Positions 4,473-10,220 of a DNA stretch of 64,000 bases are shown in pieces. The translations under genes were made by a program, and so were the position numbers. Numbering within the stretch: position 1 is the stretch's first letter; each line of letters begins with the position of its first letter. The DNA comes from an uncultured Spirochaetales bacterium (GTDB lineage: Bacteria > Spirochaetota > Spirochaetia > Sphaerochaetales > Sphaerochaetaceae). Location: contig CALXOK010000001.1 of NCBI GenBank assembly GCA_944390025.1, forward strand, positions 124,001 to 188,000, read 5' to 3'. The notes under the pieces were generated by a model. That model did not search any database, was not told where the DNA came from, and saw only the letters and a program-made list of their open reading frames with translations.

Positions 4473-5357
4473 ATGGCAATAAGAATTGATGGAAAAGAAA
4501 CCGCACAGGTTTATCAGGAGAAAATAAAAAAGGAAACAGAAGAGTTTTTCCTCAGGACAGGAAAGCGACCTGTTCTTGCTGTGATACTTGTCGGAAACGA
4601 TCCAGCGAGTATCAGCTATGTGACAAGCAAGAAGAGCGCCTGCGATAGTCTGTGTTTCGGCCATAAGGATTTCACTCTTGATGAGAATACAAGTGAAGAA
4701 GAGCTTATTGAGCTTATCAGAAAACTCAATGAAGACAATGAGACTGACGGTATTCTTGTTCAGTTCCCAGTTCCTCCTCAGATAAACGAAGATCATGTGA
4801 TTCTCGCAATATCACCAGAAAAGGATGTCGACGGGCTTCATCCTGTGAATGCCGGTCTTACTCTGATGGGTAAAGATGGTTTTGTCTCATGTACTCCCAA
4901 AGGCATTCTTGCTCTTCTTGACAGGTACAATATCCAGACAGATGGAAAGAGAGTATGCATCATTGGCCGCAGCAATCTTGTCGGAAAACCTTTATCAAGT
5001 CTTCTAATGCAGAAGGGAAGAGATGCTACTGTCACTGTATGCAATACACACACTGTCAATTTGAAAGAAATCACGCTTGAGAGTGATATCATCATTGTCG
5101 CAGCAGGCCATGTGAACACTCTGACCGGAGATATGGTTAAAGAAGGTGCTGTTGTAATTGATGTAGGAACAAACCGCGTGGAAGACGAGAGCCGCGAACG
5201 GGGCTGGCGTCTTGTAGGTGATTGTGATTACAATGCCATAAAGAATAAGGCTTCTTATATCACACCAGTGCCCGGTGGTGTCGGACCAATGACTATAACA
5301 ATGCTTATGGACAACACATTGATTGCCGCCAGAAAACGGGCAGGAGAACTGATTTGA
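4473..5357 (+). CDS. folD: Bifunctional methylenetetrahydrofolate dehydrogenase/cyclohydrolase
   Basis: 294 aa, full length. FolD interconverts 5,10-methylene-THF, methenyl-THF and 10-formyl-THF, supplying one-carbon units for purines and initiator formyl-Met. Diagnostic segments are SYVTSKKSACD with the catalytic Lys near residue 54, QFPVPPQI, DVDGLHPVNAG, PCTP-like CTPKGI, GRSNLVGKPLSSLL (NADP-binding) and the C-terminal TPVPGGVGPMT. The ATG lacks a Shine-Dalgarno and follows the -10 by 6 bp (leaderless candidate). The last bases TTGA are shared with the start of miaB, implying translational coupling. Confidence 0.96.
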   Translation: MAIRIDGKETAQVYQEKIKKETEEFFLRTGKRPVLAVILVGNDPASISYVTSKKSACDSLCFGHKDFTLDENTSEEELIELIRKLNEDNETDGILVQFPVPPQINEDHVILAISPEKDVDGLHPVNAGLTLMGKDGFVSCTPKGILALLDRYNIQTDGKRVCIIGRSNLVGKPLSSLLMQKGRDATVTVCNTHTVNLKEITLESDIIIVAAGHVNTLTGDMVKEGAVVIDVGTNRVEDESRERGWRLVGDCDYNAIKNKASYITPVPGGVGPMTITMLMDNTLIAARKRAGELI

Positions 5358-7490: not shown

Positions 7491-7497
7491 CTGATAG

Positions 7498-7871
7498 TGG
7501 AGGTGAGGAGATTCGCACTCCTGTCCTGCCGGGACATCCTGGAACGTCTACAGAGCTTAGTCACATTTTAGGTTTTCCCCTTCAGATAGAGCAATGTGAC
7601 CAGCACATCCGGAAGGTATCCGCCTTTATGTCCTCTGAATCCAGCGGCTGAATCAGAGCAAGACCCTGTTGGTGTCGGACAGCCTCAGGTTAGGATCAGC
7701 ACCTTCAGCGCCGTGCTCAAAAACACTGCTTAGGCAGCGAGAGCGAGTGCTTCGTCAGAGACAAATTCGTCTTCTTTCTTGGCATTTAATTTTTTTTGAT
7801 AGTTTTACAAGTTGTCGCTTGGCCTGCAGTCCCAGACCTGCTCTGCCGGCAGTCGAAACTGGAACACCCCC
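7498..7871 (-). ncRNA. ssrA: tmRNA (transfer-messenger RNA)
   Basis: About 374 nt. The 5' end GGGGGUG (7871-7865) pairs with CACCUCC (7505-7499) as the acceptor stem, with discriminator A at 7498. The T-arm is AGGAG-UGCGAAU-CUCCU. Next to the 5' stem is the conserved UUCGAC stretch. The mRNA-like part ends ...EALALAA followed by UAA. CCA is not encoded; the bases after the discriminator are CTA, so the tail must be added by the CCA enzyme. tmRNA rescues stalled ribosomes with SmpB, whose gene is about 2.3 kb away. It has its own promoter upstream and a terminator just past the 3' end. It fills most of the 500-bp gap between protein genes. Confidence 0.95.
7730..7786 (-). other. tmRNA tag-peptide reading frame
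   Basis: Reading from AAT at 7786 to the stop at 7730-7732 gives NAKKEDEFVSDEALALAA. The resume codon is uncertain: GCC at 7783-7781 would give tag (A)AKKEDEFVSDEALALAA, while AAT would add one Asn. The ALAA end is the usual protease signal. The tag is rather long and acidic in the middle. Confidence 0.75.
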
Positions 7872-7938: not shown

Positions 7939-9492
7939 TCATTCAAGTGTCACAGTAATTTGGGGATTCGAACAATTAGAGCTAATCACTCCCTTAATCA
8001 GCAAAAACGTTAGTTTCGAATTATCATACTTATTGCTAAATGAAACAGATTTTTCAGCTTTCTCACATCTTATATTGTCTGAACCAAATCCATTTCGAAA
8101 GATGTAGCTGTAACCTATGTTGCTGAAAGTTCCGCCATCAACTGATACATTTATATTATTGTATATATCGTCATCGTAGACATAGACCGGAACTTCAAAA
8201 CTGTCTTGTTTTTCACCGTGTCTATAGCAGTCAGAAATATTAATTGTAGTTTTTCGTCCTTCTGACTTTGAGACACTGAACGTTTCGAATTTGTCATTCT
8301 GTTCATCTAGCTTTCGGATTGTGATTGAAGCACCTTCTTCTGAAGTTACAATCTCATTGTTTTTCGCTGTGTCATACCAATAAACAGGGAACCAGCAATC
8401 TTCTTCAAGCTTATCGAAATAAACCGAAATAGTTTTTTTATTGCTATCATCATTTGCTTTGTTGATTCTGAAGGAGCGAGTATGAAAGCCTTGTCCTGGT
8501 TCAACAGGTCTAAGCTCAAAATAACCGAGACGACCAATTCTGGATTCAAATGAACAGTTTTCATTTGAATCAGAATAGATTGTCAGGCCAATGACAAAGG
8601 GTTCGGAACACTTAGGAAGGATATATACTTCAGGGCTCCCCATGGATTGATTTTTATTTATTTCATATGAAAGTTTAATTGGGTTTCTCAAGCATGTTCG
8701 CCATCTACCGGTTGTACCTGGTTCGACTGAAGAAACTATTGAGTAATAAAGTTTTTCATCTGAATATTCAGTCAAATCCTGAATTTTGTTTCCGACATTC
8801 AATCCGTTTCCATTACTCGTATAAAACTTTCCTGTTGTGTTGCCACCACCTATTCCTATACTGCTTGCATCAAAAATACAGACTTCATCTAGTTTTTCTA
8901 GTCTATATTCAGATGGCTTTGATAAATTAATTATGTAATATGCCTCAAATACGTTATTTCCATCGCTATCAACATACACAGGTGTATCTTTTAAGTAATC
9001 AATATACATGTCTTTGTTTTCAGTGAAATCTTTTTGTTTTCTTTCATAGACAAGCACATTGCTGAGGTTTCCTGAGAGGCCTGTTTCTGATGGCTTGAAA
9101 GTGATGGTCCCATTTCCATCAGGAAAAAGCATGAATGAATTGGAACCTGTATTAACAAGGCTTCCGGAAGGGGAACGTGCGGCTAATGATTCATAACTGT
9201 TTTGAACAACAGGAGTGTTGCTACGTGAAGAAGGTGAGGTGTTTGATTTATTATACGCAGTTACATTGAAGGCAACTGAATATAATTTGTCTGGGATCAG
9301 TCCTGAAATGGTAATTGTTGAGTCAGCATTCATTGGCCCAAGAGAAACGGGATTACTTTCTAAGTCTTTTACATCTTCTTCTGTAAGTGAAATATTCTCA
9401 ACAGGAAGGATTTCTTCATTGTCAGGACTGGAATTACAAGATATAAACAGCATTGAAATAATCAGCAGCAGGACATAGGCAATCTTTTTCAT
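7939..9492 (-). CDS. Large lipoprotein, putative phase-variable surface protein
   Basis: 517 aa from the ATG at 9490-9492, which has TTGAGGG 5 bp upstream; an in-frame TTG at 9504 would add four residues but lacks a ribosome site. MKKIAY, a hydrophobic run and LFISC put the lipidated Cys at residue 19. The mature part is Ser/Asn/Thr-rich with several short beta-type segments and no catalytic motif; I do not recognise a family. Internal hints of Ig-like or jelly-roll strands (TITISGLIPDKLYSVAFNVTAYN, GTITFKPSETGL) suggest an adhesin or surface role, which is inference. Base composition is more AT-rich than nearby housekeeping genes. Its promoter holds a G7 tract. Confidence 0.75.
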   Translation of the reverse strand: MKKIAYVLLLIISMLFISCNSSPDNEEILPVENISLTEEDVKDLESNPVSLGPMNADSTITISGLIPDKLYSVAFNVTAYNKSNTSPSSRSNTPVVQNSYESLAARSPSGSLVNTGSNSFMLFPDGNGTITFKPSETGLSGNLSNVLVYERKQKDFTENKDMYIDYLKDTPVYVDSDGNNVFEAYYIINLSKPSEYRLEKLDEVCIFDASSIGIGGGNTTGKFYTSNGNGLNVGNKIQDLTEYSDEKLYYSIVSSVEPGTTGRWRTCLRNPIKLSYEINKNQSMGSPEVYILPKCSEPFVIGLTIYSDSNENCSFESRIGRLGYFELRPVEPGQGFHTRSFRINKANDDSNKKTISVYFDKLEEDCWFPVYWYDTAKNNEIVTSEEGASITIRKLDEQNDKFETFSVSKSEGRKTTINISDCYRHGEKQDSFEVPVYVYDDDIYNNINVSVDGGTFSNIGYSYIFRNGFGSDNIRCEKAEKSVSFSNKYDNSKLTFLLIKGVISSNCSNPQITVTLE

Positions 9493-9514
9493 AAAAACCC
9501 TCAAGTATGTGTTT

Positions 9515-9543
9515 TAAGTATCGCCCCCCCATGCAGGTGTCAA
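9515..9543 (-). promoter_or_regulatory. Lipoprotein promoter with a G7 tract in the spacer
   Basis: Minus strand: TTGACA (9543-9538), 17-bp spacer, TACTTA (9520-9515). The spacer contains seven consecutive G (9530-9524). Gain or loss of one G would move the spacer from 17 to 18 or 16 bp, so strength could switch by slipped-strand replication errors. Confidence 0.6.
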
Positions 9544-9650: not shown

Positions 9651-10220
9651 ATGGGCAATAAAACAGATGCGCGTATAGCAAAGACTAATGAGAAACTCAG
9701 AAATGCTTTGCTTGAGCTTATGAAGAAACAGTCAATCGATACTATTTCTGTTACAGAACTGTGCAAAACCGCAGGTATAAACAGGAACACATTCTATTCA
9801 CATTACAGGGAACCGGTTGACTTACTGAATGAGATTGAGAATGAGCTTCTTGGAATGATGTGGAACACACTTAGCCAGGCTGATAAGCTTGCGGCCGACT
9901 TGAACACATATATCAGATCCGCGCTTCAGACAATCAACCAGAACAGGGAACTGTGCTATATCATCCTGTCCCGGCACGGCAACCGTCATTTTGTCAAATC
10001 CCTTATTGAGATGCTTCAGCCTCTTGTTGTCCATTCCTGGGTTGCAATGGGGATGACTGAGGAAGAGTCCGCAATCACATATACATACTGTGTAGGCGGA
10101 GCAATAGCTGTTCTTGAGCAGTGGGTGAATGAGAACTATCAGACAGACGTTAACCGCCTGTCTGACATGCTTTCTGATTTGATAGAGAACGGCCGTATCA
10201 GAAATATAAACAGATATTAA
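9651..10220 (+). CDS. TetR/AcrR-family transcriptional regulator
   Basis: 189 aa. The N-terminal TetR DNA-binding domain is clear: helix-turn-helix ISVTELCKTAGINRNTFYSHY at about residues 26-46, preceded by RIAKTNEKLRNALLELM. The C-terminal ligand-binding part is helical and has no recognisable ligand motif. GGAAG stands 5-6 bp before the ATG. It is divergent from the poly-G lipoprotein gene (about 160 bp between starts) and could regulate it or itself. Its stop codon overlaps that of smpB on the other strand by 4 bp. Confidence 0.88.
   Translation: MGNKTDARIAKTNEKLRNALLELMKKQSIDTISVTELCKTAGINRNTFYSHYREPVDLLNEIENELLGMMWNTLSQADKLAADLNTYIRSALQTINQNRELCYIILSRHGNRHFVKSLIEMLQPLVVHSWVAMGMTEEESAITYTYCVGGAIAVLEQWVNENYQTDVNRLSDMLSDLIENGRIRNINRY

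Follow-up and report, generated by a model that had tools for sequence, protein, structure and literature searches.

Is the short poly-G tract in a lipoprotein promoter of this spirochaete a phase-variation switch? A preliminary description of the window – the whole 64,000-nucleotide stretch that we analysed, C1:124001-188000 of the 1.83 Mb genome – proposed that it is, reporting TTGACA and TACTTA 17 bp apart with a G7 tract (9524-9530) in the spacer, and a putative surface lipoprotein 3' of the promoter. As judged by sequence inspection, the promoter elements are borne out base for base: the minus strand reads 5'-TTGACA CCTGCAT GGGGGGG CGA TACTTA...GAGGG TTTTT ATG-3', with a perfect TTGACA 7 bp 5' of the tract and 31 bp separating the tract from the lipoprotein start. 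The gene product does carry a signal peptide and a lipobox (Table 1). We assign a probability of roughly 0.6 to the reading that the site is a lipoprotein promoter belonging, as a short member, to a poly-G-spacer family found across the genus, in which slippage shifts the spacing, with switching being rare at this copy.

Table 1. Features of the site and its locus (window positions), and promoters of the same design elsewhere in the genome (contig:position)
Feature	Position	Strand	Details
-35 hexamer TTGACA	9538..9543	-	6/6 to consensus; sequence and pattern search
Spacer segment CCTGCAT (7 bp) between TTGACA and G tract		-	sequence
G7 tract in -35/-10 spacer	9524..9530	-	sequence; exactly 7 G
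CGA between G tract and TACTTA	9521..9523	-	sequence
TACTTA, putative -10 of the preliminary description	9515..9520	-	17-bp spacer; 2/6 to TATAAT
GATACT, alternative putative -10	9517..9522	-	15-bp spacer; 4/6; sequence
GAGGG, candidate ribosome-binding site	9498..9502	-	sequence
ATG start codon of lipoprotein gene	9492-9490	-	sequence
517-aa lipoprotein gene	7939..9492	-	signal peptide, lipobox FISC
TetR_C_8-type regulator	9651..10220	+	divergent from lipoprotein gene
tmRNA (ssrA)	7497..7871	-	just 3' of lipoprotein gene, same orientation
TTGACA-N6-G9-TACTCT	C3:154004		603-aa lipoprotein
TTGACA-N9-G11-TACCCT	C19:1976		545-aa lipoprotein
TTGACA-N7-G9-TACTCT	C27:6515		secreted protein
TTGACA-N8-G11-TACTCT	C34:165		915-aa lipoprotein

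Two candidate -10 elements can be read at the site. TACTTA lacks the conserved last T of TATAAT; GATACT, which starts two bases earlier, keeps that T. Neither version was reported by our promoter scan of the window, which accepts at least 9 of 12 matches and spacers of 16-18 bp only. TACTTA aligns with the TACTCT, TACTTT and TACTAT of sister sites at all but the last base, and this alignment supports TACTTA, the choice of the preliminary description, as the probable -10; the last base of the family -10 is, however, among its most conserved (T in 26 of 29 sites). Whichever hexamer is taken, the poly-G lies between -35 and -10, the arrangement of tp0126/porA-type spacer promoters, and, as in our definition of the genus family, TTGACA stands 4-13 bp before a tract of at least G7 with a lipoprotein gene 3' of it. 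What the site lacks is a TANNNT straight after the tract, CGA intervening, and we have filed it as a putative divergent relative of the genus-wide TTGACA-N-polyG-TANNNT promoters rather than as a typical member. The CGA may represent the interrupted 3' end of a formerly longer G tract, in which C and A have been substituted.

The closest known parallel is the promoter of tp0126, an OmpW homologue of Treponema pallidum, where a poly-G tract lies between -35 and -10 and expression is best at 17 nt (PMC7864442). Both are surface-protein promoters of a spirochaete with poly-G in the spacer, but for tp0126 the length variation and its effect have been measured, whereas the window site, which belongs to a lipoprotein gene and holds only G7, is known from sequence alone. 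At Neisseria meningitidis porA, how much of a surface protein is made changes with the length of the spacer poly-G; the differences from our site are that the porA tracts comprise 9-11 G, are proven variable under antibody selection and come from another phylum (PMC3639595). The preliminary description had likened the site to the tpr genes of Treponema; the link between poly-G and promoters in T. pallidum stands, but tp0126 is a closer match than tprE/G/J (PMC7864442). The tprE/G/J and tprL tracts resemble ours in being tied to outer-membrane-protein promoters: tprE, tprG and tprJ are permissive at ≤8 G and tprL is higher at 8 than at 10 G (PMC7864442), the tprL tract overlapping the -10 region whereas the window tract lies within the spacer. 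We consider the site a candidate further instance of the known tp0126/porA spacer-switch type; our search of the open-access literature found no paper on poly-G spacer promoters in any spirochaete but T. pallidum.

How such a switch would operate follows the tp0126 pattern, although we infer from the sequence that the promoter is active, which hexamer serves as its -10 and that the window locus may switch. RNA polymerase would contact TTGACA together with a -10 element immediately 3' of the G tract, and replication slippage would add or remove a G, bringing the -35/-10 spacing nearer to or farther from ~17 bp and transcription up or down. Were TACTTA the -10, G7 would be optimal and gain or loss of a G would both lower expression; were it GATACT, one or two extra Gs would raise expression. 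The length differences of this kind given here, those of the in-gene tracts below included, come from other loci and do not speak directly to the window site. Near-identical copies in the sister genus g10 differ solely in the number of Gs: genome G041 has G10 (C6) versus G9 (C48), with flanks identical over 56 and 118 bases, and G042 has G9 (C13) versus G10 (C26 and C27), with flanks identical over 75 and 42 bases. Within the window's genus, homologous promoters of G008 and G014 are one base apart in spacer length. Mismatch-repair loss as the cause of long tracts is ruled out, MutS1 being present in 136 of the 139 family genomes, this one included.

Campylobacter surveys place the lower limit for poly-G phase variation at G7, a length at which, the authors note, mutation may be too infrequent for switching to be efficient (PMC6321876), and the threshold for slipping tracts in T. 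pallidum is at least G8 (PMC7864442); set against these thresholds, the window tract is exactly G7. The short tract, the CGA interruption and the intact MutS together make slow switching or near fixation of the window copy probable and frequent switching unlikely: slippage would be rare, and the gene would probably stay close to a single level of expression, which an occasional slip could alter. The best-surviving alternative, which we nevertheless regard as unlikely, takes this one step further and holds that the site is a former G9-G10 spacer switch that has become locked, its tract interrupted and the last T of its -10 lost, with the gene fixed on, low or off. GGGGGGG-CGA-TACTTA does read as a G10 carrying two substitutions and followed by a TACTNT-like -10, the genome is free of G8 runs and every other non-tRNA run above G6 is at least G9, and the presence of MutS would also suit a locked tract. 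Against it, there is no ancestral sequence, the relatives being without the gene at this locus, and G7 still sits at the accepted lower limit for Campylobacter poly-G phase variation (PMC6321876).

Is the tract more than chance? Pattern searches of the whole genome returned 54 runs of exactly G6, three of G7, none of G8 and 12 of G9-G12, versus Markov expectations of ~31-51, ~4-8, 0-2 and ~0, respectively (models trained on the window). Long G tracts are strongly over-represented in this genome; the length of the G7 is no more than chance. The position of the G7 is not chance, though its length alone is unexceptional, because the genome's two remaining runs of exactly G7 both lie within tRNA-Ser genes, which leaves our tract as the sole genomic G7 run outside tRNA genes. 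Coincidence would mean a constitutive promoter, ordinary or weak, or no promoter at all, with a G7 of chance length within it; this explanation could draw on the G7 count falling within the Markov expectation and on the omission of the site from the promoter scan. We hold it to be quite improbable: TTGACA-N4..12-G7 matches once in the window versus 0.01 expected from shuffles, and this sole non-tRNA G7 shares the geometry and gene context of the other family members.

These family members are found first of all in the same genome, where 4 of the 12 long tracts (G9-G12) lie in promoters of the form TTGACA-N6..9-Gn-TA, each ahead of a gene for a lipoprotein or a secreted protein (Table 1); the remainder include some directly 5' of start codons and some inside genes. 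Within the genus, TTGAC-N4..13-G7 is present in 11 of 16 genomes, with the reversed-pattern control yielding 0 of 16. Among the 34 genus sites tabulated, TA directly follows the tract in 29 and TANNNT in 26, and the distance from -35 to TA has its mode at 16 (12 sites) and is 15-17 in 19 sites. A lipobox protein is preceded by 24 of the 34, and lipoprotein-like genes make up 3 of the 51 window genes of at least 150 aa, the latter by a stricter test than the lipobox call used on the genus sites. The architecture extends to 44 of 139 family genomes (control: 0 genomes), with its highest density in g10, and to 69 of 393 phylum genomes in 22 of 167 genera (control matches in 2 genomes). It recurs across the class Spirochaetia, and named records that carry it include Candidatus Aphodenecus pullistercoris and Treponema bryantii. 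It is not exclusive to spirochaetes, since Clostridia and others also carry it.

This genomic context supports the switch reading more than the site itself does. The proposal of a candidate phase-variation switch is borne out in part: strongly for the kind of element – recurrent promoters before lipoproteins in the genome and genus, and differences in G number in the sister genus – but not for the site itself, with its chance-length G7, CGA interruption, weak -10 and MutS. Counted against the reading that we prefer, i.e. a rarely switching short member of the poly-G-spacer family, are the break with the TA-after-tract rule, a -10 that is a poor match at 17 bp and wrongly spaced at 15 bp, the chance length of the G7, the presence of MutS1 and the lack of an orthologous tract in nine relatives. 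That the tract acts other than by spacer length (e.g. as a protein-binding site or an unusual DNA structure), independently of the 17-bp rule, is very improbable: the sister-genus -35 to TA distance, often 19 and not 16-17, and the tract effects beyond the spacer rule described for tprE/G/J, tprL and opc (PMC7864442) would be consistent with it, but the peak and range of distances in the window's own genus fit RNA polymerase spacing.

The lipoprotein itself gave no Pfam or NCBIfam match and no significant PDB sequence match. An AlphaFold model (mean pLDDT 72) predicts it to be all-beta, and the Foldseek matches of this model score at about 0.2 or lower (query-normalised TM-score), which leaves the protein with no fold assignment. 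Among the ten genomes compared, a lipoprotein between ssrA and TetR occurs in this one only: the nine relatives have MiaB and Sir2 upstream and TetR-smpB downstream, and lack the lipoprotein at the locus, which leaves no orthologous tract there to compare. The simplest reading of this arrangement would be a lineage-specific gain beside ssrA, loss in all nine relatives being less likely. The ssrA gene retains its own promoter-like sequence, TTGCCA-17-TAAATT. The divergent TetR is probably not a dedicated regulator of the lipoprotein gene, TetR and smpB being conserved in the nine relatives without it.

The closest homologue of the lipoprotein (38%) is found in G008 (L118, minus strand, tract at 4893), where a G10 just after the lipobox cuts the assembled product to 33 aa, as against the 484 or 485 aa predicted for a tract of G9 or G12. 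Similarly, a paralogue in the window's genome (C37:5655) is out of frame as assembled, with G10 (289 aa); with G9 or G12 its frame is open (895 or 896 aa). This tract (L061:5655-5664 of G000 C37) is one of two in lipoprotein genes on the contig; at the second (7995-8003), G9 is the one length from G7 to G11 that keeps the lipoprotein frame open.

Poly-G promoter switching in T. pallidum has been tied to immune evasion. Taking the above together, we lean towards the view that the uncultured gut members of this spirochaete family, along with much of the class Spirochaetia, switch many lipoproteins independently, through a standard poly-G-spacer promoter in up to ~12 copies per genome and through in-gene poly-G tracts, the window site being a member that switches slowly or is locked and that was acquired beside ssrA in recent times. 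If such switching is recurrent in uncultured gut spirochaetes, it would amount to a strategy general among host-associated spirochaetes, and the recognisable motif would allow candidate switched surface proteins to be listed.

Several further tracts came to our attention. The g10 genomes (e.g. G033-G047, L277-L296) have up to ~12 such promoters each; their -35 and TA mostly stand 19 apart, and the tract is preceded by a conserved TACC/AACC-like sequence. Should the optimum be 17, the majority of these copies would be off. Records of Clostridia (L184, L189, L204, L220, L229 and others) show TTGACA-N-polyG-TAGAAT with a spacing of 15-19, several of them in genome SIG415, and several TTGACA-polyG-TA sites occur in one metagenome assembly, that of Alphaproteobacteria bacterium Emb289P3bin18 (L164, L173).

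Within the window's own genome (G000), one 246-aa gene holds two in-frame G9 tracts (L052:4766-4774 and 4858-4866; C1:9765 and 9857). Its product resembles a DNA methyltransferase by the VDPPYG motif only, and one extra G in either tract shortens it to 90 aa, making the gene a candidate phase-variable methylase. A G12 directly 5' of a lipoprotein ATG (L056:4975-4986, C11) occupies the position expected of a ribosome-binding site, where tract length could possibly tune translation. A G10 (L053:4953-4962) and a G9 (L054:5137-5145) on C3 each lie immediately 5' of the start codon of a further ORF. Finally, a G9 followed by TATTGA (L059:363-371, C28) lies 5' of a 693-aa protein that resembles membrane pyrophosphatases, by sequence resemblance only; phase-variable tracts would not usually be expected to control such a protein.
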